Positions 8,561-57,405 of a stretch of 64,000 bases of DNA are shown here, one piece after another (position 1 is the first letter of the stretch; every line of letters starts with the position of its first letter). This stretch comes from a virus. The translations under genes and the position numbers were made by a program. The notes beneath the pieces are model-generated. The model did not search any database. It had not been told where the DNA came from and saw only the letters and a program-made list of their open reading frames with translations. The stretch covers positions 1 to 64,000 of IMG/VR virus record IMGVR_UViG_3300046455_000317. One strand, written 5' to 3'.

Positions 8561-8617
8561 ACGTTCCTTCCTCCGGACGATTCTACTATGGGGCACTCCC
8601 AGAAAGCAACCCAGATT

Positions 8618-9774: not shown

Positions 9775-9786
9775 GGGGCGGTATCC

Positions 9787-10243: not shown

Positions 10244-10416
10244 TCATTCCTTCTTTCATTCACTATGTTAGTGACGGACGGCCCCACCACCGCACCCGTC
10301 TACGAGGATCTCCAAACCCATCGAAAGTGACTTCATCCTCGTGCCTCGGCTGAGTTGCCCCCAGAGAAAACCCACCCAGAACCCTGGAAGCCCACGGTCA
10401 CTCGTGGCGATGCCAT
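10244..10416. other. intergenic spacer without recognisable gene
   Basis: This 173-nt gap separates the radical SAM gene from the small basic protein gene. A short open frame crosses it on the reverse strand, but it has no ribosome-binding site at a sensible start and overlaps the enzyme gene. I see no clear hairpin or promoter. Confidence 0.5.
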
Positions 10417-11814: not shown

Positions 11815-12001
11815 CTTTCACTCCCAGTTCTTCATCTGAGACCCATATGGTTGCCTCGACAAACGCCCCATCGAGGGTTGGGGCCACGTAAGCCGTTGGA
11901 GCCACACGGATGCCTCCCAAGTTAGCCACGCGCTGAGCCGCCTTCTCACGATATTGTTTCCGCCGTTCTTTGTCGGTCTGGCGCTTGTCGTAGATCGTCA
12001 T
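11804..12001 (-). CDS. unknown 65-residue protein
   Basis: The protein (MTIYDKRQTDKERRKQYREKAAQR...) has a basic N-terminal helix and a beta-rich remainder (AFVEATIWVSDEELGV). Its start overlaps the stop of the FAD enzyme gene and its end overlaps the radical SAM gene start. No family is recognised. Confidence 0.6.
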   Translation of the reverse strand: MTIYDKRQTDKERRKQYREKAAQRVANLGGIRVAPTAYVAPTLDGAFVEATIWVSDEELGVKDAK

Positions 12002-12840
12002 TGGGCTCCTATGTGGGACATCTCATTCGCGGCCCATCCAGCGGCGATGCACCCGAATTTGCCCGCCCCAACAGCTACCCATATCCGCTCGTTGACCTGC
12101 GCTAGCAGGCACGGTTTCCGCCCAGACAGATCGAATGACCGAAGCCCTTCACGGATCTGGGTGGGACCGTCTGTTCGCCCCATTGCGGCTTGGATCCGGA
12201 GCTTGGACTGGATCGTTCGCTCATCGGTCCAATTCTCTGGCTTCAGGGCGGAGCCGTCTGCCGCCCATATCTCCGTGGGCGTAATGTTATGGACGGTGAC
12301 CTGCTTGTATGGGGCCCAAGTCTGGACGAACGGATGCTCCACCTGTCCGGAGAACCGGAAGCTGACCCCATGCTTCGCCGTCAGCTGAATCTCTGGGATG
12401 AGTCGCATCGTTCCCATACCGGCGGCAACCACGAGGAGCCGGCAGGTCTCCATGATTTCGATCCCATGCTTTATGTAGTGGACCGTTGGGAAACCTGTTC
12501 GCTCTCGGATCCACGAGTCGTCCACTTCTTCGTGGGGTGACCCATAGACACGGTCCATTCCAATACGCCAGACATCCCTTTTCAGAATGTCTCCGCTGGG
12601 ATGAATCTGGAATGTCTCCTTGGTAAGCCCAAACAGGGTGTCGAGGGTATCCAACATGGGCTTTTCCTCATCCTTGGGAAGCCCGGTCAGTGGAGATGGT
12701 TTGACGCTTCCTCCGCATGGGCCGGTCCCAGAGAGTGGACGATGGCTGTCGAGCACTAGGGTGTCTCGCCCTTGGAGCCGGAACATCCCGGCGATGGACG
12801 CGCCCACCACTCCGTTGCCGATGACGATAGCGTCTCTCAT
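11998..12840 (-). CDS. FAD-dependent oxidoreductase/lyase (DAO-like)
   Basis: The 280-residue protein starts MRDAIVIGNGVVGASIAGMF, with the GxGxxG dinucleotide fold at 8-13 followed by LVLDSHRP, and later LLVVAAGMGT; WVAVGAGKFG near the end fits the C-terminal FAD-contacting loop of D-amino-acid oxidase-like enzymes. In known phage pathways a flavin-dependent lyase cleaves the amino acid placed on the thymine methyl. The ATG at 12840 overlaps the previous stop (ATGA). I infer that it processes a modified base; substrate is unproven. Confidence 0.82.
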   Translation of the reverse strand: MRDAIVIGNGVVGASIAGMFRLQGRDTLVLDSHRPLSGTGPCGGSVKPSPLTGLPKDEEKPMLDTLDTLFGLTKETFQIHPSGDILKRDVWRIGMDRVYGSPHEEVDDSWIRERTGFPTVHYIKHGIEIMETCRLLVVAAGMGTMRLIPEIQLTAKHGVSFRFSGQVEHPFVQTWAPYKQVTVHNITPTEIWAADGSALKPENWTDERTIQSKLRIQAAMGRTDGPTQIREGLRSFDLSGRKPCLLAQVNERIWVAVGAGKFGCIAAGWAANEMSHIGAQ

Positions 12841-13043
12841 TTGGGATTTCCTAGTGTGGCGAGTGCACGCCCAAACTTCGCCAAGTCTTCCCCAGTTAGA
12901 TTCTGGACGAAGTGAAGACGGATGAGCCCATCCACCGGGATTTCCAAAAGAATGTCGCCGCATTCCGGTGGAAGGTTGAAGCCTTCGTCTTTCAACGCTT
13001 GGTAAAGGTTGGGCGGAAAGTGGTAGTAAGCAGAAAGGCTCAT
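12837..13043 (-). CDS. unknown 68-residue protein between FAD enzyme and aldo-keto reductase
   Basis: The protein MSLSAYYHFPPNLYQALKDE... has a CGDILLEIPVDGLIRLHFVQNL beta-hairpin-like centre. It is coupled at both ends (overlaps of 4 nt). No family is recognised; tight coupling suggests that it may serve the two enzymes. Confidence 0.6.
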   Translation of the reverse strand: MSLSAYYHFPPNLYQALKDEGFNLPPECGDILLEIPVDGLIRLHFVQNLTGEDLAKFGRALATLGNPK

Positions 13044-13900
13044 CCCATGTTCTCCCTGAGATGCTCTAGATTGTTGGTCCCCACGATGGGCGTTACATGG
13101 TTGTCCTTACACCATTGGAGGATCTGCCGCCGTTCCGCGATGTCCCGGCCTTGCCCCAACGGGCTATGGGCCATCACCGCAACGTTCATCGCGCGGAAGA
13201 AAGGGAGCACCCCAGCGAGCCCATCCAGACGGACCTGAATCGACGCCAATCGAGGGCAGGTGAGACGGGCGGTGTAGAATTGGTCCACGCTGAAGTTACA
13301 CACGCCCACGTAATCGGCCTTGTCTCCCAACAGGTCATTCAGCGCCGCCATTGTTCCCTCGATGGGGACATTGGCGTTGGGCCAGTGGATTTGGAACAGC
13401 CCCAAAGGTCCGCCCAGATTGTAAACGCTCCGAGACGCTGCCCGGAGGACATTCGTGTAGGTCATATGGTTCCGGCTGACCTTAGTGGCGATCCGGATCG
13501 GCGCGTTCTTCCCCAAGACCTCCCCAAGTTCCTTCTCCACGCGCCCATACCCATACGTCTCAGCGGTATCGATCAGCGTGACGCCCAAGCCCATAGCCTC
13601 TTGGGGTAGTCTGGGATCGTATTTCCACCCATAGCTTCCCCAACCGGGACGGGTGGAGAGCGTCAGTGGAACCGTGCATGGGACCGCCACTGTTTCTCTG
13701 GGGAGTTCCCTGAGACGGCGGATGGCGCGACTTCGCGCCTGCTCTTTCATCTGGGACGTGGCGGCGGTGAAGGCTTCGCGCCAGTGGGCTTCATAGAGCG
13801 ACCCATGGACGGCATTGCGGGCGAGGGCCAAGACTTCCTCTGGGACCTCCCCATCTTTGCCCTCCAGGTAGTCAGCGGCGGCACCGAACGGAATTATCAT
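13040..13900 (-). CDS. aldo-keto reductase
   Basis: Residues 71-286 follow the aldo-keto reductase barrel. The catalytic tetrad is complete: Asp111 and Tyr116 in LIDTAETYG, Lys140 in RIATKV, His172 in LFQIHWPN. VGVCNFS, AHSPLGQG and TPIVGTNN match the NADPH-binding side. The first 70 residues are an unrelated helical extension. AKRs reduce aldehydes or ketones with NADPH. One is unexpected in a phage; its place between the FAD enzyme and the transferase suggests that it reduces a carbonyl made during base modification, which is inference. Start: ATG after GGAGAATGA. Confidence 0.88.
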   Translation of the reverse strand: MIIPFGAAADYLEGKDGEVPEEVLALARNAVHGSLYEAHWREAFTAATSQMKEQARSRAIRRLRELPRETVAVPCTVPLTLSTRPGWGSYGWKYDPRLPQEAMGLGVTLIDTAETYGYGRVEKELGEVLGKNAPIRIATKVSRNHMTYTNVLRAASRSVYNLGGPLGLFQIHWPNANVPIEGTMAALNDLLGDKADYVGVCNFSVDQFYTARLTCPRLASIQVRLDGLAGVLPFFRAMNVAVMAHSPLGQGRDIAERRQILQWCKDNHVTPIVGTNNLEHLRENMG

Positions 13901-15993: not shown

Positions 15994-16091
15994 TATTGCT
16001 TCCTCCGAATCAGGTAGTAAACGCCCAAGAGCGCCAGCCCATAGACCAAGCTGAAGGCAGAATCAATTGGCTTTATAAACGATGGTCCCAC
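15993..16091 (-). CDS. 32-residue single-pass membrane peptide (possible)
   Basis: On the reverse strand, between the collagen-like and Tat-signal genes, a GTG at 16091 opens a frame giving [20 protein letters not shown] at its end. A single hydrophobic helix with a positive cytoplasmic tail is evident. Its TAA overlaps the Tat gene ATG (TAATG), which supports translation. It overlaps the collagen-like gene 3' end by 29 nt. Short length keeps confidence low. Confidence 0.4.
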
Positions 16092-17163
16092 TCAACACCG
16101 TCCCGTTTGCGATGTAGCCGGGTGGGAGAGGCTTTGGGGTGGTAACCGGCTGATCCGCCCCATAAAGCATCATTGTTTTTGTCTCAGGAACCCCACGGCC
16201 AACGAGGGAGATGAGTGGGAGCGCCAAATCCCCAAAGAAGATCGACGCCACGACTGGGACGCCATCGTCGATACTGAAAGGCAACCCTTCGAGGATCACC
16301 ATCGGCTCTGGGAACCGCCCAACACGTCCGACGATCAGCGCGAAGGATGCCATGGTGATCCTCCCAGACTGGACCCACCAGCCGGTTTGCCGGGTGTAGA
16401 GGTGCGTTCCCATCAGCTTGGGCTTCCACGATCCTTCCGCATCCGTCATCGACGCGCCTGGCTCACCCTGCGGTCCTCTGGGACCTTCTGGGCCTTCTTC
16501 ACCCTGCTCGCCTTGGTCGCCCTGCGGTCCTTCCGGACCCTCTGGGCCCTGCTCGCCTTGGTCGCCGTCCCATCCGCGTGGACCCTCTGGGCCTTGGTCG
16601 CCTTCATCGCCCTTGGGTCCGGGTGGGCCTTGTGGGCCTGATGATCCGACTGGACCTTGGGGCCCAGCCGGGCCAGTCGGTCCTGTCCCGTCTCCCATGG
16701 GACCTTGGGGGCCAGCGGGACCAGGTGGCCCCGCCGGTCCTATGGGGCCTGTTGGGCCTTCCCCATACGGACCCTCTGGGCCTTGCGGCCCCATAACGCC
16801 TTGGGGACCTATGGGGCCCATTGGTCCCGTGGGACCCTCTGGACCTTGGGACCCTGGTTCACCGCCCGGACCCTGCGGCCCGGTTGGCCCTTGGGGCCCA
16901 ACGCCATATGGACCTTCTGGTCCTTGGGGTCCCATGGGACCTTGCGGCCCTTGCTCGCCTGGCGGCCCAATGGCGTATTCTCCGGGTGGCCCCTGTTGGC
17001 CGCGTGGACCCTCCGGACCTGTCGGACCTTGGGGACCGGCTGGGCCTGTTGGACCCGCTGGGCCTTGCGGTCCTTCCGGTCCAGGTGGTCCTTGGGCTCC
17101 TGGTGGCCCAGGCGGTCCTGGGACACCCCCAGGTGCCGTCGGGTCAATATCGCCTTCAGCCAT
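16063..17163 (-). CDS. collagen-like repeat protein with C-terminal head domain
   Basis: The 366-residue protein starts [13 protein letters not shown] and residues from about 10 to 240 are almost pure G-x-y triplets ([11 protein letters not shown] type), with five short breaks. The last about 125 residues ([21 protein letters not shown]...) form a non-collagen beta domain that should nucleate trimerisation. Such proteins are usually phage fibres. It is odd that this one sits in the leftward replication block rather than with tail genes. The ATG at 17163 follows GGAGACGG and overlaps the preceding stop by 8 nt. Confidence 0.85.
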
Positions 17164-17419
17164 TCCGTCTCCGTTTCTGATAATCCATGACCCCGTCCCG
17201 CATGAACGTGAGTCGAATCTGCTCGATATGGGGAAGCCCAGACCACTCCCCATCCGTCATCTTTCGCATCTGACCGTCGTCTTCCATCACAAGCCAACAG
17301 AAGCAGGCAACGCAAAGAATCAAGACCCCAGGTTGGGGCTTTCCGGTCCCAGTCAGCGCGTCATGGGCTGCCCCACAGACCGGGCATGAGTGGTCTCCAC
17401 GAGTGGTCTGGACGCCCAT
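17156..17419 (-). CDS. unknown zinc-finger-like protein
   Basis: The 87-residue protein has CPVCGAAHD near the start and CVACFCW in the middle, a CxxC...CxxC set, followed by a helical basic tail (DYQKRRRNG). It overlaps the cold-shock gene stop (one base) and the collagen-like start. No family is recognised. Confidence 0.62.
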
Positions 17420-43440: not shown

Positions 43441-46400
43441 ATGGATATAGGAACACTCACCGGCTACATCATCCTCGAAGACAATCTGACGCCAGCGTTG
43501 GCGACAGCCCAGAAGAGTCTTGAGACGTTTGGGAGAGGCGCGAAGGATGCTGGTATTGCCCTTACAGCCGGTCTTTCAGTTCCCATCGCTGCGGTTGGGG
43601 GATTCGCGATCAAAGCCGCCATAGACTTTGAGTCGTCTTTCGCCGGTGTTCGTAAGACAGTGGATGGCGCCGTCGATGACTTTGGGAATCTTACCAAAGT
43701 GGGCGCGGATTTACAGAATGCATTCCGAGGGTTAGCCAAGGAAATCCCGGTCAGCGTCAATGAGCTCAACGCCATCGCGGAAGCTGGCGGACAGTTAGGC
43801 GTCAAGAGCCAAGATCTGGTTTTGTTTACCCGCACCATGGCCGACATGGGCGTGGCTACCAACCTTTCCTCCGATCAAGCGGCGACCAGTCTCGCCCAGA
43901 TCGCGAACATTATTAACAACGAAGCCGGTCCCCAGTATGATCGTTTGGGCGCCACCGTTGTTGACTTAGGTAACAAATCGGCCGCGACAGAATCTGATAT
44001 CGTTGAATTTGGTCTCCGTCTGGCAGGCGCTGGTAAAGTCGCCGGCATGTCTGAGCCGGAAATCTTGGGGATTGGTTCTGCCCTCGCGTCCGTGGGTATC
44101 AACGCTGAGGCCGGTGGCTCTGCCTTCTCCAAGGTAATGATCCAACTGGCGACGGCAGCCGACCAAGGTGGCGCCAAGCTTGAGAGCTTTGCGACAGTCG
44201 CTGGGGTCTCCGCCGATACGTTCAAGAAGAAGTTTGAGACCGATGCCGCTGGCGCTCTCACGATGTTCGTCCAGGGTCTGGGGAAGGTTGAGGCCCAAGG
44301 TGGGAGTCTCTTTGGGACCCTCGAACAGTTGGGGATCACCGAGCAGCGCATGCGAGATGCCCTCCTCCGGACGGCTGGGGCGGGTGACCTTCTCGCCCAG
44401 TCGATCAAGGATGGGCGAGCCGCTTGGGAGGCGAACACTGCACTAACCAAGGAAGCGGAACAACGCTACAAGACCACTGAGTCCCAACTCCAGTTACTTG
44501 GGAATAAACTGAACGATGTAGCCATCACCCTTGGGTCAGCGTTACTCCCCATCGTCATTGATCTCGTGAAAGCGTTGGAGCCGTTGATCGCGCATCTGGC
44601 GGATGCAGCCAGGTGGTTCGCGGATTTACCTGCGCCTATCAAATACGTCACCATCGGCTTCCTCGCCATCGTGGCGGCGATTGGGCCCATGTTGATTGGC
44701 CTGGGGTTGATGGCGAGCGGTTGGGCGGCGATTATCCCACTCTTTGCCGCTGGGACGGTTGGGGGCACTGCCCTCGCTGGAACGATGACGTTCCTGAATT
44801 CCACGCTCATCCCACTCGCTGTGACGTTGGCGCCGTTTGTCCTCGCCTTGGGCGCGCTCTACTACGCGGTCAACCAACTCATCCCAGCGTTCCATGGGCT
44901 CGCCACGGCTTGGGCGGAAGGAAAGACATGGGAGTTCCTGAGTGCGAGGGATGAAGACAACTTCGTCCGTCGTTGGTTGGGGATGTCTACCGGGGTGAAG
45001 ACGGCGAAGGATGGGATTCTCCCAGATATCAAAGCCATCAATGAGGCTGTTGCGGGATTGGCCGACCAACGGACCTCGGTCAACCCAGATCTTTCCAAAC
45101 TGGAAAGTGCGCTCAAGAAGGCGGCTGACGAGGGTGAACTCACCGCGCCCATCATCGAGGATGTTGGGAATGCGATGAAGGCCGCTGGGCTTCACGCCAA
45201 CAAGTCAACGCCCTATCTCTTGGCGGTTGCGGATCAATTGGCGGCTGTCGCGGCCGCAGGGAAACCAGCCGCGAAAGTGGTGGCGGAGACGGTAACTGAG
45301 GAACAGAAAGCGGCCAAGGCAGCTGCTGATATGCAGCGCCAATTGGAGACACTCCGCAAAGAGGGACTGACTCCACTTACTGCCGCCCAGAAGACGTACA
45401 TTACTGAAGCCAAGAGGCTTGGGGATGAAGAATCCAACATCGCCAAGGTCACTGGCGTAAGTGAGCGTGCGATTCGTGCTTACTTGGACGCCAGTAAGGA
45501 AGCCGCCAAGAAGACTGAGGAGCACGCGAAGGCTGTCGCCAAGATGACGTCAGCCTATGAGGGGACCAACAAAGAACTCCATGAGTTGCCTAACTCCGTG
45601 CGTTGGGTGATTGAGGCCCAACTCAAAGCGGGCAAGAGTGTCGCGGATGTTGCCAAAGCCTACAACTTGACTGAGGAGACGGTCCAGGCTGTTGGCGATC
45701 AGATGAAGATGCTGATTGACCTCCACGCGTTTGAGGCGTCGGCTTTGGGTATCACTGAGAGCACCCTTGGGAAAGTGAGTCGAGCAGAAGAGGAATACCT
45801 GAAGCTCTTGGGGCAGAACGTCACGCTGTATGCGACGTTGTCCCCAGCGCATCAGAAGGAAATTGATTTCTACCGGACCCAAACAAAAGCCACGGAAGCT
45901 CAGATCGCGGCGGCCATCGACCGGCTGCGCGTCTTGGAGTTGTTGGCGAGGGTGGAGAACGCGAGCAATGCTGGCTTACTGAGTGCGTTGACGTCCATAG
46001 GTGAGAAGGTCAACGTGATGGATACGTTGACCCTCGGCCAACAGGCTTACGTCCGAGAGGTTAAGAACACGACTGACGCCGTCGATGGGTGGGCGAGTGC
46101 GATGTCTGCGGTTGGTGGAGCGTTCCCAGATACCTCGAAGTTTGGGAAAGCGATTGCGGGCATCGGCCAAGCGTTTACTGTCGCATCCGCGAGCCAGAAA
46201 GCGGCTGAGCGTGTCGCCAACAGATACAATGCGACTCGTGGGGTGAATCCTCCTGCGGGAGCCGATTGGGGTTATGGGAGCGTTGCGTTTGGCCCTGGTT
46301 CGACACCTGGGGAGCGAGCCGGTGCTGTCGGACAGATCGCGTCGTCGTCTATCAGCGGTTATTACAACGCTCGTGGGGCACTCGACCAGGCGAGCCGCGT

Positions 46401-49266
46401 GGATCGCACGCTTGGGATGGCTCAAACTGGCGCCCAAGTTGGTAGCGCCTTCGGTCCCCAAGGTGCCCTCATCGGGATGGGCGTTGGTGCGATTATTGGC
46501 GCGGTCTCTGAAGACCCAGGATGGGCGAAGGCCCAACACGCCGTTGCAGAAGCCTTTGGCGTTGAGATTTCAGAGGAATTAGGTCGCACGATTGCGGACA
46601 GTGCGGAGGAACTTGGAGGGAGGATCTACGGCATCTGGGATAACTTGGGAGCGATTATTTCAGAAGCTGGTGGGCTGGATGATGCGAATCTTGGTGACTA
46701 TGAGGGCCATCTCATAGGGATGATGGAGGCTGTTAAGCAAGGAAACTTGGACGCGGCCATCGCCGTGGATACGCTGGATGAGACCTGGTCCCAGTTCGTG
46801 GAGGCTGGTACGTCTGACGTCGGTGTACTAAACCAGGCCTTGGTAAGTATCATCGACTACATGAATGAATTGGGCGTAGAAAGTCAAGCGGTCACTGCGT
46901 ATCTGGGAGCGCAGGGCCAAGCTGGTGCAAGTGCGTTTGGCGATGCGATGACCGTTGGGGGTGGCGCCATAACGGAACGGCTCCGACTGACGACCGAACT
47001 CCAAGTGGCGGAATCGGATCTCATGTTAGCGCGAGAGGATGGGAGCCAACGGTCCAAGGAGCAAGCGGAGGAGCTTGAAGCCAAGATTGAGGGTTTGAAC
47101 GAGCAATTGGCCGTTCAAAACGGTATCATAGCAGCGACAGCCTTATCGTCCCAGGCAGCGGCGGATGCTATCGCGGCTGGAGTCGCGGCTGACTTCGACG
47201 CGATGATAAACTCTGGGATGTCCTTCCATGACGCGGTGGAAGCGATTCAGCCAGCCATCGAGGGACTCCAACTTCAGATAACAGAGGCCGGTCTTACTGG
47301 GAGTGAGGTCTTTGATGTCCTCCAGGAGCAAGTGGCGCTCTACTCTGACGCTGTCGCTGGGCCCGCACTGACCGCCGTAGATGGTTTGTCTGCTGGGATG
47401 GTTAACCTCAGTAACATGGGGCAATTGAACCAAACGTCGTTTGCTGCACTGTCCGGGCAAATCGGATCCACGTTTGAATCGCTGGTTGCCCAAGGCAACG
47501 ATAGCGAAGTGGTAATGATTGGAATGAAGGATTCTATCCAACGGATGTGGGAGGAGCAACAGGAGTTTGGCTTCCATACGGACGAAGCGACCCAGGCGTT
47601 GATCGACGAAGCTGTCGCCCAAGGGGTTGTGGGTGAGAAGCATAAGTCTATCTCAGACCAGATGTTGGACGCCACGAATCGTATCGCGGGTGCTATGGAA
47701 GGTCTTGCGAGAGCGATGGGCGTTGACATCCCAAATGCAGCGAACAATGCCGCGTATACGACGCGTGGCGCCGCTGACTCCATGGAGAGGGACTGGAACC
47801 GCGTCCATGATGCCGCGACTGGGGCCGCTGAAGGACACTCACCCTCTGGGATCAAGCAAGTCACCGTTCGCACTGCTGAAGCCCAACACGCGGTTGAAGT
47901 CGCGGCAGGCCAGATGATTGCGGCGTTCGGCCAGATCTTCCTCGTAGTGACTGGCTTGGGCGATGCGGTAATGGATACGTTTGAGAGCGTCCACCAACAG
48001 ATCGTGGATTACCAGAACGTCGATGCTGCGATTAGGTCATTGACCGTCGCCCAAAAGAACTTCATCGAGCTTGCTTTGGTATCTGGGGTATCAATTGCAG
48101 ATATCGCTGCATTGCTTGGTACGAGCACTATTGCGATTCAGTCTTATGTGGACGCCAATAAGAAGGCAGCTGCTGCAGTGGCAGCGACAGCGGCAGCGAC
48201 CGCTCAACACGCCCAGGTGATTGCAGATATCAACCAAGCCATAGCGGACCATGCGGATGCCGCAAATGCTATGGCAAGACTCACCGCCGGGCAGCGAAGT
48301 TTCATCGACAGTGCGATTGCCGCTGGCGTCTCAGTGAGTACGCTCGCTGGGGCATTAGGCACAACTGTTGAGGCCATTAGTCTCTATGTGGCCGCCCAGA
48401 AGGCAGCCGCTGACGCGGCTGATGCAACGGCTGCAGCGACCGCCAGGCACGTGGAGGTGGTCGAGGGCATTATCAAGGCCGTGGCAAACTACAAGGGCGC
48501 AGCCGATGAGATGGCGAAGCTCACCGCTGACCAACAGATTTTCATTACTGATGCCCTCCAGGCTGGGGTCTCGGTCAGTTCCCTCGCGGAAGCGTTGGGG
48601 ACAACGGTTGACGCTATCAACCTCTATGTGGCCGCCCAGAAAGCGGCAGCGGATGCCTCGAAAGCGACTGAGAAGGCGGCATTGGATGCAGCAGCTGCGG
48701 CTGCCAAGGAAGCCCAGAAGATTACGGACATTAACACCGCCATAGCGCAGAACAAAGGTGCTGCGGATGAGGCCGCGAAGTTCACGGAGGACCAGCGCAC
48801 CTTCATCAAGGATGCCGTGGACGCGGGTGTCTCTGTAGCCGCTCTGGCTGACGTGATGGATACGACAACGTATGCGATCCAATACTTCATCGACTCCCAG
48901 AGGAAGATAACTGGCGCCCAGGAACCGACCATCGCACCGCCGCTGACTGGGTCCGAGGCATTTGAGCGTTGGCGAGAAGACTACAGCAGAAGTGTGGCGT
49001 CACCCGTGGAATACTATGCGACTGGCGCGGATGTTATTCCATTCCCCAGCCGTGGGACGGATACCGTGCCCGCCATGTTGACCCCAGGCGAGGGTGTTCT
49101 CACCGTCGAACAGAACAAAGAATACCACCAGACCATCGAGGGTCCGTCCAACCAGGAAGTCGTGGACGCCGTTAATGGGCTCCGCGTAGACATGACGACT
49201 AAGATGCCTCGCGCGTTGGCGCGCTCGCTCCATACCGGGCTTGTTGGGCTGAGGACGGCGTCATAG
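43441..49266 (+). CDS. tape measure protein with HTH-like internal repeats
   Basis: The 1941-residue protein has a TP901-type N-terminal core (FESSFAGVRKTVDGAVDDFG, SVNELNAIAEAGGQLGV), a hydrophobic stretch at about 400-480, and the C-terminal PGEGVLTVEQNKEY motif typical of tape measures. Its length sets tail length. Four related units near residues 1533, 1614, 1694 and 1780 read LTxxQxxFIxxAxxxGVSVxxLAxxLGTT, like helix-turn-helix units, separated by Ala-rich helices; two diverged copies lie at about 647 and 717. Confidence 0.93.
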   Translation: MDIGTLTGYIILEDNLTPALATAQKSLETFGRGAKDAGIALTAGLSVPIAAVGGFAIKAAIDFESSFAGVRKTVDGAVDDFGNLTKVGADLQNAFRGLAKEIPVSVNELNAIAEAGGQLGVKSQDLVLFTRTMADMGVATNLSSDQAATSLAQIANIINNEAGPQYDRLGATVVDLGNKSAATESDIVEFGLRLAGAGKVAGMSEPEILGIGSALASVGINAEAGGSAFSKVMIQLATAADQGGAKLESFATVAGVSADTFKKKFETDAAGALTMFVQGLGKVEAQGGSLFGTLEQLGITEQRMRDALLRTAGAGDLLAQSIKDGRAAWEANTALTKEAEQRYKTTESQLQLLGNKLNDVAITLGSALLPIVIDLVKALEPLIAHLADAARWFADLPAPIKYVTIGFLAIVAAIGPMLIGLGLMASGWAAIIPLFAAGTVGGTALAGTMTFLNSTLIPLAVTLAPFVLALGALYYAVNQLIPAFHGLATAWAEGKTWEFLSARDEDNFVRRWLGMSTGVKTAKDGILPDIKAINEAVAGLADQRTSVNPDLSKLESALKKAADEGELTAPIIEDVGNAMKAAGLHANKSTPYLLAVADQLAAVAAAGKPAAKVVAETVTEEQKAAKAAADMQRQLETLRKEGLTPLTAAQKTYITEAKRLGDEESNIAKVTGVSERAIRAYLDASKEAAKKTEEHAKAVAKMTSAYEGTNKELHELPNSVRWVIEAQLKAGKSVADVAKAYNLTEETVQAVGDQMKMLIDLHAFEASALGITESTLGKVSRAEEEYLKLLGQNVTLYATLSPAHQKEIDFYRTQTKATEAQIAAAIDRLRVLELLARVENASNAGLLSALTSIGEKVNVMDTLTLGQQAYVREVKNTTDAVDGWASAMSAVGGAFPDTSKFGKAIAGIGQAFTVASASQKAAERVANRYNATRGVNPPAGADWGYGSVAFGPGSTPGERAGAVGQIASSSISGYYNARGALDQASRVDRTLGMAQTGAQVGSAFGPQGALIGMGVGAIIGAVSEDPGWAKAQHAVAEAFGVEISEELGRTIADSAEELGGRIYGIWDNLGAIISEAGGLDDANLGDYEGHLIGMMEAVKQGNLDAAIAVDTLDETWSQFVEAGTSDVGVLNQALVSIIDYMNELGVESQAVTAYLGAQGQAGASAFGDAMTVGGGAITERLRLTTELQVAESDLMLAREDGSQRSKEQAEELEAKIEGLNEQLAVQNGIIAATALSSQAAADAIAAGVAADFDAMINSGMSFHDAVEAIQPAIEGLQLQITEAGLTGSEVFDVLQEQVALYSDAVAGPALTAVDGLSAGMVNLSNMGQLNQTSFAALSGQIGSTFESLVAQGNDSEVVMIGMKDSIQRMWEEQQEFGFHTDEATQALIDEAVAQGVVGEKHKSISDQMLDATNRIAGAMEGLARAMGVDIPNAANNAAYTTRGAADSMERDWNRVHDAATGAAEGHSPSGIKQVTVRTAEAQHAVEVAAGQMIAAFGQIFLVVTGLGDAVMDTFESVHQQIVDYQNVDAAIRSLTVAQKNFIELALVSGVSIADIAALLGTSTIAIQSYVDANKKAAAAVAATAAATAQHAQVIADINQAIADHADAANAMARLTAGQRSFIDSAIAAGVSVSTLAGALGTTVEAISLYVAAQKAAADAADATAAATARHVEVVEGIIKAVANYKGAADEMAKLTADQQIFITDALQAGVSVSSLAEALGTTVDAINLYVAAQKAAADASKATEKAALDAAAAAAKEAQKITDINTAIAQNKGAADEAAKFTEDQRTFIKDAVDAGVSVAALADVMDTTTYAIQYFIDSQRKITGAQEPTIAPPLTGSEAFERWREDYSRSVASPVEYYATGADVIPFPSRGTDTVPAMLTPGEGVLTVEQNKEYHQTIEGPSNQEVVDAVNGLRVDMTTKMPRALARSLHTGLVGLRTAS

Positions 49267-52200
49267 TGGCTGTTATCCTGAATGTTATTGAAACGACATC
49301 GGTCAATACCTCTGGGGTATTTGGTGCGTGGCTTACAGCGGTTGTATCTGGTGGCCCAGGTCACCCTGGGGACAGACTCATCCTCTATAACACTGATAAC
49401 ACCATCCTCGATTGGTTCTTCCTGAATGGGACAAAAGCTCCACCGGCTGCTGGTCTCACCTCGGGCCAGTGTACTTTTGGAAGACCAAGCGCCGCTGGGA
49501 AATACAAGGTTCAGTTCGTCCACTTCTATCAACCCAGGGCAAACTACCAAGATACGGTTCTTGCGGATGGGGTCACCTATTACTGGCAGATGGACGAAAC
49601 CTCTGGGGTCACTGCCGTTGATATGAAGGCCGGTTTGAATGGGACGATTTCCGGTGGCGTCACGCTCGGCACGCCCCATATCTTCCCAGGCACGCACGAT
49701 ACCCCAGTGATGACGTTCAATGGGGTGGACGGGCAAATCGTGACTTCCGCTCCCATAACACTACCCTCTGGGGCGGTCACTTTTGAGGCATGGATTCGAC
49801 AGACGAAGACAATTCCCACGCCAACAGTTCGCTATCATTGTATATGGACGAATCGTCGGAGCCCAGGCTTATCAACTACCACTGATGTGTTCTTTGTTGG
49901 GACCGTGGAATCCAATGGTGTCCTCCACGCCATTCTCGCCTATGGGCCTAACCAATACCAAGGCGTCACCGACATTGGCGACGGTCAGTGGCACCATATC
50001 GTAGTGGCGGTTGCTGCCCCCCAGATGGTGATTTTTGTTGATGGGAAGATCGATGCGAGCCTTGGTACCCTCGCGCGATTGCCGGCAGACCCAGGTGGCC
50101 CACCGGCGATTGGACGCGATCTCACAAACGCCACGGTTACTCAGTTCAATGGGGCGTTGGGGAAGGTTGCGGTTTACTACTCCAATCTCTCCCACCAGAA
50201 AATCACCGAGCACGCGGCGTATGGGTTCCAAACGACGGTTCTGGCGGTAGAGACTGTAACCGTCCATCTGAGTGAACCCCAAGTCTGCTTGGAGATGGAG
50301 TTCCTGGGGAAGAACCAGGGCTGGACGATTGTCCGTGATTGGTATGTGAATCCCGGCTTGGTATGGCACCGAGGTCTACCTGGGATTGGGATTCTGGATC
50401 TGATTGCGGACATTGGAACGCTCCACTTCACCCTCGACAATAGTGAGAAGAACAGCGTTGGGAAAGTCGGGTATTACAGCCCAGACCACGCCAACAAACG
50501 GTATGGGTTCTACCTGAATATTGGCGTCCGTGTTCGTATCGGGCAGTCCAAACGGTTCACCGGCGTCATCTCCTCGATTGACCCCGTCCCAGGGAAGTTT
50601 GGGACGCGCACCGTCCAAGTTGAGTGTACGGATTGGATGGGTATCGCAGACCGGACACGCATCGAGAATCTCCCAGTTCTGGTAAACAAGCGCGGTGATG
50701 AGGTCTTCCGGACACTTCTCGATTCGCTCCCAGGGTCAGCCCACCCAGATGGAGTTCAAGCCGATTCCAGCCCAGACATTTACCCATACACGTTGGACCG
50801 GACACGTGACGAACAAACGGTCCTCCGCGATGAGTTGTACCGGCTCTGTACGAGTGGGATGGCCCGCATCTATGTTCTGGGCGATGGGACGCTGGTCTAT
50901 GAGAATCGGGGCAGACGCGCCGCCATAACATCGAGCGTTGATACGTTCACTGACTCCCATGGCTTCACCTCTTCCCATGGGCGCGAAGCCATTGTGAACC
51001 GGGCCCAGGCGACCATCCACCCTCGGCTCCCATCAGCGACCGATGTTGTGTTGTACTCGATGCCGCAGCCCATGGAACTCGTGGCGGGAACTCCGCTGAC
51101 GATTATGGGCCCATGGTCTGACCCGGCCAACCCCAATACGCGTGTGGGAGCGGTCAGTCTAGTGTCCCCACTAGTCCGTGGGACCGACTATGTCGCCAAC
51201 TCACTCGCCAATGGGACAGGGACGGATCTTACAGCGTCAGTAGTGATTCTCGCTGGGCTCTCTGGGAACGCGACATCCTTCACGGTCTCACTTCCCCAGG
51301 GTGGGTTTCTCATAAAGCTCCAACAACGTGGGAAGCCGTTGTATGACTACGGCCAAGCGGTTCTCACTTGGGAGGACACAACATCTATCGCCCAGTTCGG
51401 AGTTGCCTCGACCCAGATTGATATGCCCTATACGGCCGACCCAAATCTGGCCTTGGAGGTCGCCCAGTTTACGGTTTACAATGGGGCGTTCCCACTGACG
51501 AATGTTGCTGGATTCAGTCGTATCGTAGACCTGAAGAATCCCACGGAACTCCAACGGAGTATTGGGCGTCTCATCAGCGACCGGATTAGCATCATTGACC
51601 CGGTGACTGGATTGTCGAAGCCATTCTTCATCAACGCAGTTGATGAGACTATCTCCGAGAATCGAGTCACGACACAGTGGATGTTGACCCCAGGCGATGC
51701 GACGGGCTATTGGCTCTTGGAAGTCGATGGGTTCACCGAGCTTGATATTACGACGCGTCTGGGATTCGGGCAGATTCTCGGCCATGTGGATATCGTTCAC
51801 CAAGATATCCATGGAGACCAAATCCATTACGATTCGATCCACATTGATACCCACTCGGACAACGTCCACGTTGATTTGACGCACGTCGATTTTGTTACCC
51901 ATACGGACGTTACCGATCACCACGACCAGAGCACCCATGTGGATGATCCCGGGCACTCAGATTCGGTCGCCCATACGGACTACTCCGACCATGTGGATGT
52001 GACGACCCATGATGACGTAACACACCAAGACGTTCCCCATACGGATGGCGCCCATACCGATATCGCGCAGGTGTATTGGCACACGGACATCCCCCATACG
52101 GACATCGCCCATTACGATGTCTACTATGATTCGCCGCACCAAGACATCGCTCACCAGGATAGCCACGATGACTGGCGAGATAATGTCCCTGGGATCAATT

Positions 52201-52805
52201 TCCTCGACCATATCGACTGCAATCCGCAATACAATGGAACTGGTAAGTGGCATCTGGATTGTAACTCGAAACCCTATGGGCCGCCCTACGGTGACCCAAA
52301 TCCCAACGGGTCATTCCATAACGACCAGAACCATGTGGACGGGCATTACGACCAGAGTGGTCTCCACTACGACCAGAACGATCACGTAGACTACGCGCAC
52401 CAAGACGCCCATGGGGACTCCCATGCGGACTACCACGCGGACCAACGCCACGTGGATGAGGGCTATTTCGATCCGCACCAGGACGTGCCTTACCAAGCTG
52501 CCCATGGGGATACACCGCACTATGATGTGCCCCATTACGATACCGCGCAGGTCTATGTGCCCCATACGGATGTGTATCCACATTCCGATAGTGGCGCCCA
52601 TCACGACCAAAACATCCATACGGACACGTCGAACCACTCCGATGCGATCCTCCACGACGATGTAACGTCCCACGCAGACAATAACGTCCACTCGGACACT
52701 CCCCATACCGACATTACCCATGGGGATACGCCGCACCAAGACATAGCCCACTCGGATGTCCCACACCAAGATACGCACCAAGACTTCCATGGAGACTCGA
52801 ATTGA
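49266..52805 (+). CDS. tail hub protein with LamG domain and C-terminal His-x-Asp repeat region
   Basis: The 1179-residue protein starts at a GTG overlapping the tape measure stop (TAGTG). Residues about 95-320 form a LamG/concanavalin-like domain (YYWQMDETSGVTAVDM, GDGQWHHIVVAV). Residues about 340-830 resemble the tail hub (RFTGVISSIDPVPGKFG, VECTDWMGIADRTRIENLP). From His840 to the end, about 55 HxD motifs occur in 340 residues, broken near 985-1015 by a segment with two Cys. The region is probably an elongated metal-binding fibre. The next gene is a coupled radical SAM enzyme. Confidence 0.8.
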   Translation: MAVILNVIETTSVNTSGVFGAWLTAVVSGGPGHPGDRLILYNTDNTILDWFFLNGTKAPPAAGLTSGQCTFGRPSAAGKYKVQFVHFYQPRANYQDTVLADGVTYYWQMDETSGVTAVDMKAGLNGTISGGVTLGTPHIFPGTHDTPVMTFNGVDGQIVTSAPITLPSGAVTFEAWIRQTKTIPTPTVRYHCIWTNRRSPGLSTTTDVFFVGTVESNGVLHAILAYGPNQYQGVTDIGDGQWHHIVVAVAAPQMVIFVDGKIDASLGTLARLPADPGGPPAIGRDLTNATVTQFNGALGKVAVYYSNLSHQKITEHAAYGFQTTVLAVETVTVHLSEPQVCLEMEFLGKNQGWTIVRDWYVNPGLVWHRGLPGIGILDLIADIGTLHFTLDNSEKNSVGKVGYYSPDHANKRYGFYLNIGVRVRIGQSKRFTGVISSIDPVPGKFGTRTVQVECTDWMGIADRTRIENLPVLVNKRGDEVFRTLLDSLPGSAHPDGVQADSSPDIYPYTLDRTRDEQTVLRDELYRLCTSGMARIYVLGDGTLVYENRGRRAAITSSVDTFTDSHGFTSSHGREAIVNRAQATIHPRLPSATDVVLYSMPQPMELVAGTPLTIMGPWSDPANPNTRVGAVSLVSPLVRGTDYVANSLANGTGTDLTASVVILAGLSGNATSFTVSLPQGGFLIKLQQRGKPLYDYGQAVLTWEDTTSIAQFGVASTQIDMPYTADPNLALEVAQFTVYNGAFPLTNVAGFSRIVDLKNPTELQRSIGRLISDRISIIDPVTGLSKPFFINAVDETISENRVTTQWMLTPGDATGYWLLEVDGFTELDITTRLGFGQILGHVDIVHQDIHGDQIHYDSIHIDTHSDNVHVDLTHVDFVTHTDVTDHHDQSTHVDDPGHSDSVAHTDYSDHVDVTTHDDVTHQDVPHTDGAHTDIAQVYWHTDIPHTDIAHYDVYYDSPHQDIAHQDSHDDWRDNVPGINFLDHIDCNPQYNGTGKWHLDCNSKPYGPPYGDPNPNGSFHNDQNHVDGHYDQSGLHYDQNDHVDYAHQDAHGDSHADYHADQRHVDEGYFDPHQDVPYQAAHGDTPHYDVPHYDTAQVYVPHTDVYPHSDSGAHHDQNIHTDTSNHSDAILHDDVTSHADNNVHSDTPHTDITHGDTPHQDIAHSDVPHQDTHQDFHGDSN
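51783..52802 (+). repeat. His-x-Asp coding repeat region
   Basis: Codons for H-x-D recur every 3-7 residues, mostly as [P/A/T]-H-[T/Q/S/V/Y]-D-x. The DNA words CCCATACGGA(T/C) and CACCAAGA(C/T) recur, so part of the array grew by duplication. It is not a CRISPR array: the frame is open throughout and the repeat unit is about 15 nt. Confidence 0.9.
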
Positions 52806-54109
52806 CGATTGAGCTGACTCCCAACGGCGTGGCCTGCAATTTGGACTGTCCCTATTGCTACCAGAAGCCCATGAGAGACGCCGGAAACATCTCCCAAGGT
52901 TACGACATGGAGAAGATGATCGCCGGGCTCAAACGCGAGGGTGGGCCATTCGCGGTCTTCGGTGGGGAAGCCTTGACGATGCCGCTCGATGATTTGGTCC
53001 AAATCTTTGAGTTCGGGTATAAGACCTATGGGTCCAACGGCGTCCAGACGAATGGGACGCTGATTACTGAGGAACACTTGGACGTGTTCCAGAAATACAA
53101 AGTCCACGTGGGACTCTCCATCGATGGCCCAGACGAATTGAACGACAGCCGATGGGTCAAAGACCTTCCCACGACGCGAGAAGCCACGGCCAAGAGCCAT
53201 GCGGCGCTCCAAGCTCTCGTGAAGCGGAAGCAATCTCCAAGTATTATCGTCACCCTCTACCGTGGGAATGCCGTGGGGCAGCGCTTGGACCGGCTCATTA
53301 CCTGGTTCAAGGAGCTTGACCGTATGGGCGTGCGAAACGTCCGTCTCCATCTCCTCGAAGTGGAGAACCGCGAAGTGGCGGAGACGATGGCGATGACGAC
53401 AGAGGAGAATATCACGGCGCTGATGCGCCTCTATGAGTTCCAGAGGAAGACCAAGATCAACTTTGACCTCTTTGGGGAGATTGCCCGGCTCCTCCAAGCC
53501 AACGATGACGCGGTAACGTGTACGTGGAACGCGTGCGACCCATACACGACATCCGCCGTCCGTGGGGTCAGCGGGCAAGGTGAGTCGTCCAACTGTGGGC
53601 GAACCAACAAAGAAGGAATCAATTGGCAGAAAGCCAACACGCCTGGGTTTGAGCGGCAGGTCGCGCTTTACAACACGCCCCAGGAAGATCTGGGGTGCAA
53701 AGGGTGCCGGTTCTTCTTCGCCTGTAAGGGCCAATGCCCTGGGACGGCGGAGGGTGGTGACTGGCGGAACCGAAGCGAGCACTGCGGCATCTGGATGGCG
53801 TTGTTCGAGCGCATCGAGGGAGATATGATTGGGCTTGGCCAACAGCCTGTCTCCCGCGCGGAGTGGCTTCCCAAGCTCGAACGGATTATGGTTGATACCT
53901 GGGACAGCGGCCGGAACATAACCATCAGGGAAGCGATGCATCGTCTCAACGGCTCCCCATGCGCTGAGACCGGCGATGGGGGCAACCGGCCCCATGGCGA
54001 CCATTGGGATGCTCCGGAAGGCGCGTCCCACTCTGATGGGATATGGGATGTCCATGGGGACAAAGGCACCACAGTCCACGGCGACTCTGGGAGAGAAGAC
54101 AATGCGTGA
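52802..54109 (+). CDS. radical SAM/SPASM maturase-like enzyme with HxD tail
   Basis: The 435-residue protein has C12-NLD-C16-PY-C19 (CxxxCxxC), a GGEAL motif and LSIDGPDELND as in SPASM maturases (anSME, PqqE). The C-terminal Cys cluster (CNWxAC-type CTWNACDPY, CGRTNKEG, CKGCRFFFACKGQCPG, CGIW) would bind two auxiliary clusters. The last 45 residues carry five HxD motifs (HGD, HWD, HSD, HGD, HGD) like the preceding tail protein. It starts at a TTG overlapping that gene's stop (TTGA). I infer that it modifies the HxD region. Confidence 0.87.
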   Translation: MTIELTPNGVACNLDCPYCYQKPMRDAGNISQGYDMEKMIAGLKREGGPFAVFGGEALTMPLDDLVQIFEFGYKTYGSNGVQTNGTLITEEHLDVFQKYKVHVGLSIDGPDELNDSRWVKDLPTTREATAKSHAALQALVKRKQSPSIIVTLYRGNAVGQRLDRLITWFKELDRMGVRNVRLHLLEVENREVAETMAMTTEENITALMRLYEFQRKTKINFDLFGEIARLLQANDDAVTCTWNACDPYTTSAVRGVSGQGESSNCGRTNKEGINWQKANTPGFERQVALYNTPQEDLGCKGCRFFFACKGQCPGTAEGGDWRNRSEHCGIWMALFERIEGDMIGLGQQPVSRAEWLPKLERIMVDTWDSGRNITIREAMHRLNGSPCAETGDGGNRPHGDHWDAPEGASHSDGIWDVHGDKGTTVHGDSGREDNA

Positions 54110-55220
54110 TTGGACGCGGATTATCTGGGTGAGCGCCAGAGCACGCGCTGTCTGGGAACCCAGGCTCACCCTCATCCAGAAGGCGTGGCTCCAAGTCGAG
54201 GTGGATAGTGTCCTCCTTGGGCTGCGCCCAGCGGGTCTTGTCTTCGGCCAACCCACGGTTGCGGGTCTTCCCATAACGCCAGTGGCTCCGAATCGCTATG
54301 CGATTGGCCCAGCGGCAGCGGATCTCGTCATGGCGTTCCGCCAGAGTAACAATCAACTCATTGGAGAACTCCTTGGGTATCCTCCATGCTGCCGCGACTT
54401 CTTTGACCGCACCTGGGGCCTGGGACTCCTTGATACTACGGCGCAGATGGAAGGAGATGGGAATGGACCGCTGGACTGCAATATTCTTGGTCGGTGGTTG
54501 GGTGTGCGCTTCATTATGCATCTACCATGCAGTTGGACGTGCGAGCATACCATCGTCTGTGCCGAGCGTTGGAAGCCCTTGTGGCCCAGAGAGGCTCTCC
54601 AATGGGCCACTGAGATACTCTCTTGGCCCGCTCAATGGTCCGCTCGAAATGGAATCGCTGAGATCACCTTCCCAGTCTGTAAGATGTCTACCCGGACAAC
54701 GCCTGGTGAGACGGCGATTATTCGACGACATGGGATATCCCCAGAGGAAGCCGCGACGGGCGTTCAGTTCCCATTCAATGAGCCACGCCGACGATCCCAA
54801 GTCGAGCCATTGATCCAACTCACTGACCCCGCCAAGGCCAATGGGTTCTCCTCCCTCGAAGCAATGACTGCCGCCCATGCAATGGTCCTCGAAGAATTGG
54901 AGATGTCGCCGCCCCAAGGGTTGACGGTAGACCTTGGGTGTGGGAACGGTCGGTTAATGCGACAGATTGGGAAGAAATTCACGGTCCCAGTTCTGGGCGT
55001 TGAGGTGGACCCAAGCCGCGCCCAAGGCGCTGCCGATATCCGTTTGACGAACCTGGAAGCCTTGGATACACTTCCCCACGATGCCGACACCCTCGTGGTC
55101 TCCATGCGGCGGTTCGAGGAGATTCCAGAACTGGAACGTTGGGCGGCTTCCCATGCCCGGCAAGTGTTGGTCTACAGTTACGATCCACCGATGTTTGCTG
55201 AGATGAAGCGAGGACAGTAA
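54102..55220 (+). CDS. Cys-rich DUF483-like domain fused to SAM methyltransferase
   Basis: The 372-residue protein overlaps the radical SAM gene by 8 nt. The N-terminal half has GELLGYPPCCRDFF and HLPCSWTCEHT, a CC...HxxC...C pattern like DUF483 proteins that probably bind metal. The C-terminal half has TVDLGCGNGRLMRQI, VLGVEVDPSRA and DTLVVSMRRFEE, a class I methyltransferase. A fused Cys-rich and methyltransferase protein next to a SPASM enzyme suggests a second modification step on the same substrate. Confidence 0.75.
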   Translation: MRDWTRIIWVSARARAVWEPRLTLIQKAWLQVEVDSVLLGLRPAGLVFGQPTVAGLPITPVAPNRYAIGPAAADLVMAFRQSNNQLIGELLGYPPCCRDFFDRTWGLGLLDTTAQMEGDGNGPLDCNILGRWLGVRFIMHLPCSWTCEHTIVCAERWKPLWPREALQWATEILSWPAQWSARNGIAEITFPVCKMSTRTTPGETAIIRRHGISPEEAATGVQFPFNEPRRRSQVEPLIQLTDPAKANGFSSLEAMTAAHAMVLEELEMSPPQGLTVDLGCGNGRLMRQIGKKFTVPVLGVEVDPSRAQGAADIRLTNLEALDTLPHDADTLVVSMRRFEEIPELERWAASHARQVLVYSYDPPMFAEMKRGQ

Positions 55221-55702
55221 TGGCGAGTTGGCCTGCACGAACGTGGGTTCCAGCGGAACGTGTGACAGCGGGCATGATGAATGGGGTGCGAGACCAACTC
55301 AATGAACTCCATTCATTCGGTCAGTGGCTCGACCAACCGTTCAATGCGGCCGATTATGGGGCGAGTGCTGGCGCGACATGGACTCTAGGTCTGGCAGCGA
55401 TTCTCAGAAATCGCTATACCATTATCCAGAAAACGTTGATTTGGAACTTCTACGTTTCGTGGTTTTCCGGGTCCAATAATCTCATCGGTGCTCCCAGTAC
55501 GCTCACGATCAAACTCCCTGGGAACTGTACCTGCCCTGGGAATATCATTATGCCTACGGCCTACAACATCGATGGCGGAGCACGAGTTGATGTTGACGCG
55601 AGTCCCAACGGGGCCACCTGTTCGTTCACGAAAAGAAATGGGAGCAACTTCACGGCCGGTTCTCCTGGGATAATTGGGACATTGACTTTTGAGATTCTCT
55701 AA
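55220..55702 (+). CDS. short tail fibre protein
   Basis: The 160-residue protein begins MASWPARTWVPAERVTAGMM and shares the stretch MMNGVRDQLNELH with the next protein, so both probably attach to the same tail site. The rest is beta-rich (STLTIKLPGNCTCPGNIIMP). The ATG overlaps the preceding stop (TAATG). Confidence 0.68.
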   Translation: MASWPARTWVPAERVTAGMMNGVRDQLNELHSFGQWLDQPFNAADYGASAGATWTLGLAAILRNRYTIIQKTLIWNFYVSWFSGSNNLIGAPSTLTIKLPGNCTCPGNIIMPTAYNIDGGARVDVDASPNGATCSFTKRNGSNFTAGSPGIIGTLTFEIL

Positions 55703-57405
55703 TGGCTGACGAACCACGCAAGAGTCTCTTTGAGACCCAGCGGGATTTTGTTCGCCAACAGGCGGAGGTTTCACCCTTCGCGGCGAACTGGCCTGCGCGG
55801 ACCTGGATGCCTGGGGAGCGTGTTACCTCTGGGATGATGAATGGCGTCCGAGACCAGCTCAACGAACTCCATAACACGGTTGGTGGACTCGATGCAACCA
55901 ACGTCGCCTATAAGAACCAGGCGAACGTTTTCACAGTGAACCAGGTCCTCAACAATGCTGCACTTTTCATCCAGGGTAGTAATCCCAGTCTCTACCTGTA
56001 TGATCCTACCCAGCCAGTAAACCTTCGTAACTTCCGCCTCATGAACCAAACCCAGTTGCTCCGGATCTACGCCCAGGATGATGGGGAGAGTGGGTTTGTA
56101 AACGCGATGTCGCTGTCTCGCTCAGGACAGTTAATGGTGCGAGGAACGATTCAGATTGGTAAAGCGGACATTATCAGTCCAACCGTCCCAGGTCTTCGGA
56201 ACACCGACAACCGATTGGATATTGTGCTTGGGGACCAAACCAACTGGGCGCCAGTGCAAGCGCTGAGTTACTATGCCGTGGGTGTCGGAAACAGCTTTGC
56301 AGATCTGACTGTCCGTGGGGCGACGAACTTCCAGAGTAACATCTCTGTCTCCAATGGCGCGGTGATCTCCCAGGGCCCAGTGTATCCTGGCTTTGTTGAT
56401 ACTGGTGCGGCGCAGGTATCGTACTACATTGGCGCCCATACCGGCTATGCTGGCCTCTATACCAATGCGAGTTTGACCGCCCAAGGTGAACTGTACGCAA
56501 TTGGAAACATTTTCAGTAACAGCCCGGTCTACCCTGGCCGCATTGATACGGGATGGACCAAGCAAACGAGTCTGTATCTTGGGTCCCATGGGAGCTATGG
56601 GCTCTACTCTAACACGGGCCTCTATCTGGAAGGCCCAGTGTGGATGTCTTCCTTCGCGTCTCGTGGCCCTGGGACCATCGCTGGGAATCTAACAATTACA
56701 ACGGGCGGCGCAAGTATCACCGGCACCCTCGTGGTAAATACTGTCGTGGTTAATGTGGGTCCACTGACCGTGGCGACTGGTGGGGCAGACATTACGGGTT
56801 ACTCATACGTCCGGACACCCGGTGGCGCTGGTGATGCTTCGTTGTTCCTCATGAATCCCGCCGCTGGTGGCGCAACCCAAAACTTCCGACTTATGAGCTA
56901 TGGGGGTTACTTCCGCGTATGGAATGCGGATAATGGCGCGGAATTACTTCTAGTCCATGGCTCTGGCTCTGTCACTCTCCCTGGTGGTGGTGGGGTGATG
57001 AGCGCCCAAGTGTACTACGAGCGTGGCCGCACTGTCCCCATGGGAGGGCTCACAGCCGTCGATCCAGCTGTCTATATGCACGGCCAAGTGGTTGGTGTAA
57101 GTGGAACGATGATGTATGCCCTCGTGGGCCGCATGATGCACCTGACGTTCAATATCGCAGCCACTTGCGTGACTGGCGGCGGTAACCAGATCAATATGAC
57201 TATTCCATTCCCAGCTGGGCAACTCCCAGCGATTACGTGTCACGTGGGAATCTGGACGGCGCACGCCCAACGTTATTGGCACTCTTCATTCGCGGCTTAT
57301 GCAGCCAATCAATATTTCTTGACCTTCTACGATGAGGGTCTGGCTGGATGGCCAGACGGTGCAATCTATCTCTATGGGTCCATCGACATTCCGTTCAGTC
57401 CGTAA
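55702..57405 (+). CDS. tail fibre / receptor-binding protein
   Basis: The 567-residue protein has the shared WPARTWMPGERVTSGMMNG attachment segment after 28 extra residues, then long beta repeats (GPVYPGFVDTGAAQVSYYIG, SPVYPGRIDTGWTKQTSLYL) typical of trimeric fibres, and a C-terminal beta domain (GRMMHLTFNIAATCVTGGG). It is the best candidate for host recognition. Confidence 0.75.
   Translation: MADEPRKSLFETQRDFVRQQAEVSPFAANWPARTWMPGERVTSGMMNGVRDQLNELHNTVGGLDATNVAYKNQANVFTVNQVLNNAALFIQGSNPSLYLYDPTQPVNLRNFRLMNQTQLLRIYAQDDGESGFVNAMSLSRSGQLMVRGTIQIGKADIISPTVPGLRNTDNRLDIVLGDQTNWAPVQALSYYAVGVGNSFADLTVRGATNFQSNISVSNGAVISQGPVYPGFVDTGAAQVSYYIGAHTGYAGLYTNASLTAQGELYAIGNIFSNSPVYPGRIDTGWTKQTSLYLGSHGSYGLYSNTGLYLEGPVWMSSFASRGPGTIAGNLTITTGGASITGTLVVNTVVVNVGPLTVATGGADITGYSYVRTPGGAGDASLFLMNPAAGGATQNFRLMSYGGYFRVWNADNGAELLLVHGSGSVTLPGGGGVMSAQVYYERGRTVPMGGLTAVDPAVYMHGQVVGVSGTMMYALVGRMMHLTFNIAATCVTGGGNQINMTIPFPAGQLPAITCHVGIWTAHAQRYWHSSFAAYAANQYFLTFYDEGLAGWPDGAIYLYGSIDIPFSP

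Follow-up and report, generated by a model that had tools for sequence, protein, structure and literature searches.

The stretch of DNA analysed here, called the window, is a 64,000-nucleotide part of a 67,002-base virus record. On its plus strand, a tape measure protein gene (43441..49266, 1941 aa; PF10145 PhageMin_Tail, E=1.4e-20) lies directly upstream of a three-gene module, and the module thus forms part of the tail operon. The first gene (49266..52805, +, GTG start) encodes a 1179-aa tail protein that consists of a LamG-like domain (Laminin_G_3, E=9.9e-15), a middle region with no family match and a C-terminal array of His-x-Asp (HxD) motifs. Its TGA stop codon overlaps the TTG start of a radical SAM/SPASM gene at 52802 (AATTGACG), exactly as an earlier note on this DNA had read it, and that second gene (52802..54109, +) encodes an enzyme of 435 aa. 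The third reading frame is open from 53976, but its gene more likely starts at ATG 54102, overlapping the stop codon of the radical SAM gene, and it encodes a DUF483-like domain (54102..54806, +) fused to a class I methyltransferase domain (54828..55220, +). Two further genes 3′ of the module (55220-55702 and 55702-57405, +) have a common N-terminal segment and no family match, and they probably encode tail appendages.

The HxD array (51783..52802, +) occupies residues 840–1179 of the tail protein and is the proposed substrate of the enzyme. A hand count had put about 55 motifs in the last 340 residues; we counted 55, far above the number found after shuffling (54 HxD in the segment from residue 841, compared to 11.0 ± 2.7 and a maximum of 21 in 10,000 shuffles of that segment's residues). 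Within the same segment, the only His residues outside an HxD motif are the central ones of two HHD triplets. The array uses both His codons (27 CAC and 27 CAT) and both Asp codons (30 GAC and 24 GAT), indicating that it is not a recent DNA repeat and has been kept at the protein level. Separately, the window's array has cysteines at residues 985 and 999, and several long arrays (those of the window and of loci L005, L006, L023, L148 and L156) have just two cysteines, often as HxDC, located midway along the array where its run of motifs is interrupted. The pair is perhaps a disulfide-closed tip.

The enzyme matches the radical SAM family above the cut-off (PF04055, E=2.7e-13) and has the sequence features of the radical SAM/SPASM group, including a CX3CX2C triad (C12/C16/C19) and eight conserved auxiliary-cluster cysteines (C240, C245, C265, C299, C302, C308, C312 and C328). 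The SPASM cysteine set that had been noticed beside the CxxxCxxC motif is therefore complete, and all 11 cysteines are invariant in 46 of 46 aligned enzymes. The eight further cysteines are enough for two auxiliary clusters. Anaerobic sulfatase maturases have two auxiliary clusters, and the enzyme's best PDB match is 4k36. The enzyme also carries a C-terminal tail (53993..54106, +) with five HxD motifs at residues 398–428; the earlier note was correct about the motifs in the tail protein, but had missed these five. Such motifs follow the last SPASM cysteine in 43 of the 46 enzymes, with few HxD elsewhere in them, and the tail is absent from the enzymes of a Sphingomonas genome and of locus L033.

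Nearly all of these enzymes match curated models that mainly describe peptide or protein maturases, the best being DynA, AmcB, YhhB and GrrM/OscB beside the sulfatase maturases, with the PapB model also among them. The window enzyme nonetheless scores below the cut-off of every named family (best 67.9 bits versus a cut-off of 425), and scores this far below every curated cut-off indicate a separate subfamily. Locus L099 has a tandem pair of radical SAM genes from this family (10403-12070 and 12080-13315) behind a single array.

The third protein is much as first described, with YPPCC and HLPCSWTC motifs, a methyltransferase domain and a gene that overlaps the enzyme gene. Its N-terminal domain scores 19.0 against DUF483 (PF04467), compared to a Pfam gathering cut-off of 25; the Cumys homologue is annotated as DUF483, and both proteins contain YPxCC. 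Numbered from ATG 54102, the candidate metal ligands are C96, C97, H140, C143 and C147. Residues C96, C97, H140, C147, E33, D111 and R136 are invariant, and C143 is nearly so, with His in its place in Thermus phages. The conservation of these Cys and His residues suggests that they form a metal site. The domain was modelled with confidence (pLDDT 91.7, pTM 0.86), and a PDB fold search with the model returned no match at E <= 0.001, indicating that it does not resemble any solved fold, RRE domains included. By comparison, the model of the C-terminal domain matched many methyltransferases in a fold search (probability 1.00), and its Rossmann-type fold and DLGCGNG motif (DxGxGxG) are those of a class I SAM methyltransferase. 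Of 34 DUF483 partners, 26 contain the methyltransferase motif, while the Thermus and haloarchaeal modules have no methyltransferase domain. Consequently, methylation is accessory, rather than the core reaction.

We found the same arrangement of genes in other viruses. In tblastn searches of phage records, the enzyme was present at 47–48% identity in the Thermus phages phiMa, Cumys and phiLo. In phiMa and Cumys (host Thermus thermophilus HB8), an array gene (phiMa_29 or Cumys_13; 53–54 HxD) precedes the enzyme gene and a DUF483 gene comes next; in phiLo, three array proteins are encoded a few kb away, the first with at least 24 HxD in the part of it covered and the other two with 101 and 72 HxD. 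A viral scan with the window enzyme as a single sequence gave no match, and a profile built from four enzymes identified 37 viral loci, of which about 35 are clearly orthologous, as well as one close relative in a Sphingomonas genome. In all the orthologous viral loci except the short record L009, array genes adjoin the enzyme gene and a DUF483 gene lies 3′ of it. Around the distant radical SAM relatives (L041, L042 and L044–L054), we found neither an array nor a DUF483 gene.

The arrays form the C termini of proteins encoded in tail operons, including arrays near tail or tape measure genes (L018, L023 and L025), an array among the baseplate genes of Cumys and an array that follows baseplate J and fibre-like genes on a Halomicrococcus gelatinilyticus plasmid. 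In this haloarchaeal array, HxD, YxD, FxD and HxN motifs are mixed. The three-gene set is therefore a conserved module of tailed phages and of one archaeal tail-gene cassette. One case counts against the link: a plasmid of Halorussus aquaticus (L289) has the enzyme and DUF483 genes outside a tail operon, with no array near them. Two other loci differ in setting. At L040 the module has decayed: its array, radical SAM and DUF483 genes survive only as short, interrupted frames. In Sphingomonas sp. HITSZ_GF (L043), the module is chromosomal and lies beside a 1363-residue protein without a family match; the enzyme was absent from the 400 other genomes of this isolate's order among the 401 examined, so the module is rare in that bacterial order.

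We also searched for arrays independently of the enzyme, using a DNA pattern of four consecutive HxD units and counting as arrays those regions with at least 8 HxD in 60 residues. These scans yielded at least 85 loci with arrays. Among the matches listed, the enzyme was present in 45 of 53 contigs with degenerate arrays (44 by script, and 45 with L130, which is located on the contig of the enzyme carrier L021; three records searched whole are included), compared to only 1 of 31 contigs with near-perfect tandem repeats. The adjacent SPASM gene that had been anticipated in other phage genomes is thus the rule for degenerate arrays, which is the opposite of HxD tail proteins normally occurring without such a neighbour. 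Of the enzyme-less degenerate cases, L073, L102 and L124 have arrays identical or nearly identical to that of L130, the arrays of L134 and L254 run into the contig end with the expected enzyme position beyond it, and L189, L250 and L270 resemble Asp-rich repeats of another kind. An 18.9 kb fragment (L273) also counts against the link, as it has no enzyme and a tail fibre-like gene 3′ of its array; the script classed this array as a simple repeat, one of the 31, although it looks degenerate to the eye.

These counts bear on whether the array is a chance product or a simple DNA repeat, functionally unconnected to the enzyme. Arrays are repetitive and variable in length, and perfect HxD repeats do exist without the enzyme, as in the 205,857-base record L104, where a 2312-residue open frame has 48 HxD in near-perfect HTDTA repeats and the whole record has no radical SAM relative. 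However, perfect repeats almost never occur with the enzyme, while the linkage to degenerate arrays recurs in distant phages and in the archaeal cassette. Furthermore, in homologous arrays, His positions have undergone 104 amino-acid versus 627 synonymous changes, compared to 3689 versus 3006 in the linkers (the aligned pairs are not independent). Already contradicted by the enzyme-array linkage and by the spectrum of replacements described below, a chance origin is scarcely credible. The claim that the phage's SPASM enzyme modifies the HxD stalk is instead strongly supported by a linkage conserved in phages and in an archaeal tail cassette, and the array is very likely the enzyme's substrate.

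The residues that the arrays conserve point to the chemistry. Across 41 non-redundant arrays (8952 residues), Asp or Asn is found at +2 of 1411 of 1452 His (97%, a figure that arises partly by construction as the array limits were drawn with the same motif), as well as at +2 of 53% of Phe and 19% of Tyr, compared to 3–5% for L, I, V, S, A and G. In freshwater phage arrays (L010–L021), HTN, FVN and FSN units stand among HTD units. At 879 aligned sites of homologous arrays, His is replaced only by Phe (29 cases) or Tyr (1 case) while the third residue stays Asp or Asn, and the third residue undergoes only Asp/Asn exchange (143 cases) while the first stays aromatic; one lineage supplies most of these aligned pairs, which are not independent, and the Phe, Tyr and Asn replacements belong mainly to a single freshwater phage lineage. 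The range of replacements is nevertheless sharply limited, and replacing His with Phe takes two base changes. Motifs mostly lie 3 to 9 residues apart, and even one array mixes different spacings. An aromatic-x-Asp/Asn rule with variable spacing is what the joining of side chains at i and i+2 predicts, and not what a metal-binding stalk predicts.

HxH-bearing phage spike and fibre tips bind iron, and both His and Asp can be metal ligands. The array could accordingly be a metal-binding stalk of that kind, with the enzyme serving something else. Yet the HxH ligand pattern is nearly absent from the arrays (His is at +2 of just 11 of 1452 array His), His is replaced by Phe and Asp by Asn, and the spacing of 3 to 9 residues is irregular. 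Moreover, the enzyme is tied to degenerate arrays and carries the same motif at its own end. Metal loading, which had been offered as one purpose of the system, is disfavoured as its main purpose by a motif that is aromatic-x-Asp/Asn rather than strictly HxD, and we regard a metal stalk as improbable.

A more serious competitor, though still an unlikely one, is that the enzyme modifies single array residues, for instance by epimerisation or hydroxylation at His or at Asp/Asn, after which the partner protein methylates them. Other peptide-modifying chemistries do occur among SPASM-type enzymes, and the frequent fusion of a methyltransferase to the DUF483-like domain fits such a second step. This explanation would, however, leave the joint need for an aromatic residue at i and Asp/Asn at i+2 unexplained, as the middle residue and the spacing vary, and the Thermus and haloarchaeal modules manage without the methyltransferase. 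Crosslinks, epimers and methyl groups had all been proposed as marks on the stalk; the aromatic-x-Asp/Asn motif best fits crosslinks, whereas methylation as the core reaction does not hold for these modules. The reaction is probably an i to i+2 side-chain crosslink.

Known enzymes provide precedents for such crosslinks. In three-residue cyclophanes, an aromatic residue at i is joined to the beta-carbon at i+2 in Trp-Asn, Trp-Asp, Phe-Asn and Tyr-Asp pairs, and HaaB and YhhB join His C2 to the beta-carbon at i+2 (PMC11002830). The array rule falls within this residue set, suggesting that the module works like a three-residue cyclophane system. As in the triceptide systems (XncB, OscB/GrrM, YxdB, HaaB and YhhB), a SPASM radical SAM enzyme is encoded beside its substrate gene, and the substrate has an aromatic-x-residue motif with Asp, Asn or a similar residue at i+2, for which His, Phe, Tyr, Asp and Asn are all precedented (PMC11002830); triceptide maturases are also the best-ranking curated models for the module's enzymes. 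Unlike the short, leader-bearing triceptide precursors, the proposed substrates here are tail proteins, some 150 to 1500 residues long, that carry 13 to 101 motifs, and the module adds an HxD tail on the enzyme and a DUF483 and methyltransferase partner. The best score of 67.9 bits also falls short of the triceptide family cut-offs (XyeB, GrrM/OscB, FxsB, YhhB and AmcB). Consequently, with neither the curated cut-offs reached nor a short precursor present, we do not file the module in any named family.

Three other systems invite comparison. Among curated models, DynA ranks second for the window enzyme and is matched by all 46 relatives, but the window enzyme scores 63.4 compared to a cut-off of 450; dynobactin has a His C-N crosslink to the residue two away (PMC11002830), though this antibiotic is just one short peptide bearing two rings. 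TvgB, likewise a lone radical SAM enzyme that belongs to the same broad group, acts repeatedly on a repetitive substrate, and each modification costs 2 Da (PMC9062424); TvgA differs in its TVGG motif, its Val cyclopropane and its nature as a small bacterial peptide with transporters. The Hxs cassettes, to which the earlier note had compared the locus, also encode a His-x repeat protein beside radical SAM genes, but they have two enzymes where the module has one, and the third residue of the module's motif is Asp or Asn. In the whole record, HxsA (TIGR03979) had no match at E <= 10 and HxsC (TIGR03977) had no match, while the HxsB model (TIGR03978) reached 22.7 bits versus a cut-off of 370. We therefore rejected membership in the Hxs cassettes, and the supposed kinship falls away.

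Together, we consider it probable that the three genes are a virus-encoded tail maturation module whose SPASM enzyme makes a multi-cyclophane tail tip. In the proposed mechanism, the array would form the C-terminal tip of the tail protein and the adjacent enzyme would work repeatedly along it, so that the side chain of the aromatic residue at i, which is His or in some motifs Phe or Tyr, becomes bonded to the beta-carbon of Asp or Asn at i+2. A series of three-residue cyclophanes would result, with 2 Da lost per ring. Probable roles for the HxD tail of the enzyme itself are docking on the system, tethering of the enzyme or being modified in turn, while the DUF483-like partner, with its probable Cys/His metal site, would assist by delivering the substrate or carrying out a second step. 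Where present, the fused methyltransferase would put on a further mark. A stiff tail tip is a plausible purpose; the modified array would be a tip or fibre resistant to proteases and heat. With slightly less assurance, we extend this proposal to tailed viruses of both bacteria and archaea, which may well make poly-cyclophane tail tips by turning dozens of aromatic-x-Asp/Asn motifs of one structural protein into rings with a dedicated SPASM enzyme and a partner of unsolved fold.

The module has been met before under another interpretation, in the single earlier report that our searches located. According to excerpts of Kolesnik et al. 2024 (PMC11437467), an "rSAM module" is named in Cumys and phiMa, similar loci occur in prophages, the third gene is called unknown and the module is proposed to modify DNA; those excerpts contain no mention of HxD arrays. 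This is the same module of array, rSAM and DUF483 genes, and what is new here is the motif rule and the wider link to arrays. The same excerpts place cyanobacterial homologues near deazapurine DNA-modification genes, in favour of DNA modification by the rSAM and DUF483 proteins, and the window phage itself has a separate set of genes resembling those for thymidine hypermodification (5659-13900, −). This cluster includes a 5-hmdU DNA kinase domain (5659-6621, −; PF18723), MT-A70 (6783-7349, −), a second radical SAM gene (10417-11814, −), an FAD oxidoreductase-like gene just under the cut-off (11998-12963, −) and an aldo/keto reductase (13043-13900, −). However, it lies 40 kb from the module on the opposite strand and has its own rSAM gene, while the module is located in tail operons beside arrays and its enzyme is of the SPASM peptide-maturase type with HxD tails. 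It is therefore very doubtful that the module modifies DNA.

If tail-tip crosslinking is correct, the module would replace this DNA-modification proposal with the first known case of a virus crosslinking its own tail chemically in this way, a kind of virion maturation that no virus is known to use. Searches of the open-access literature, outside of which most subscription papers lie, turned up no radical SAM enzyme that modifies a phage tail. RiPP-type radical chemistry would then extend beyond small natural products to the building of virus particles, and the arrays would offer a source of long, sequence-programmed multi-ring peptide rods. "Hypothetical" gene sets in Thermus phages and many environmental viruses would acquire roles, and DUF483 a testable function.

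Several minor features of the window were also observed. The tape measure protein has at least four near-identical helix-turn-helix-like repeats at residues 1534–1818, of the form LTxxQRxFIxxAxxAGVSVxxLAxxLGTTxxAIxxYV, with looser repeats of the same form near residues 660 and 720 and a Pfam match to Sigma70_r4_2 (E=7.5e-09). A collagen-like repeat protein (PF01391, E=5.9e-29) is encoded at 16066-17253 (−), and tandem DNA repeats accompany it. The N-terminal segment common to the two genes 3′ of the module is WPARTWxPxERVTxGMMNGVRDQLNELH; the array protein of locus L034 starts with a similar segment, which is probably a common tail-attachment segment.
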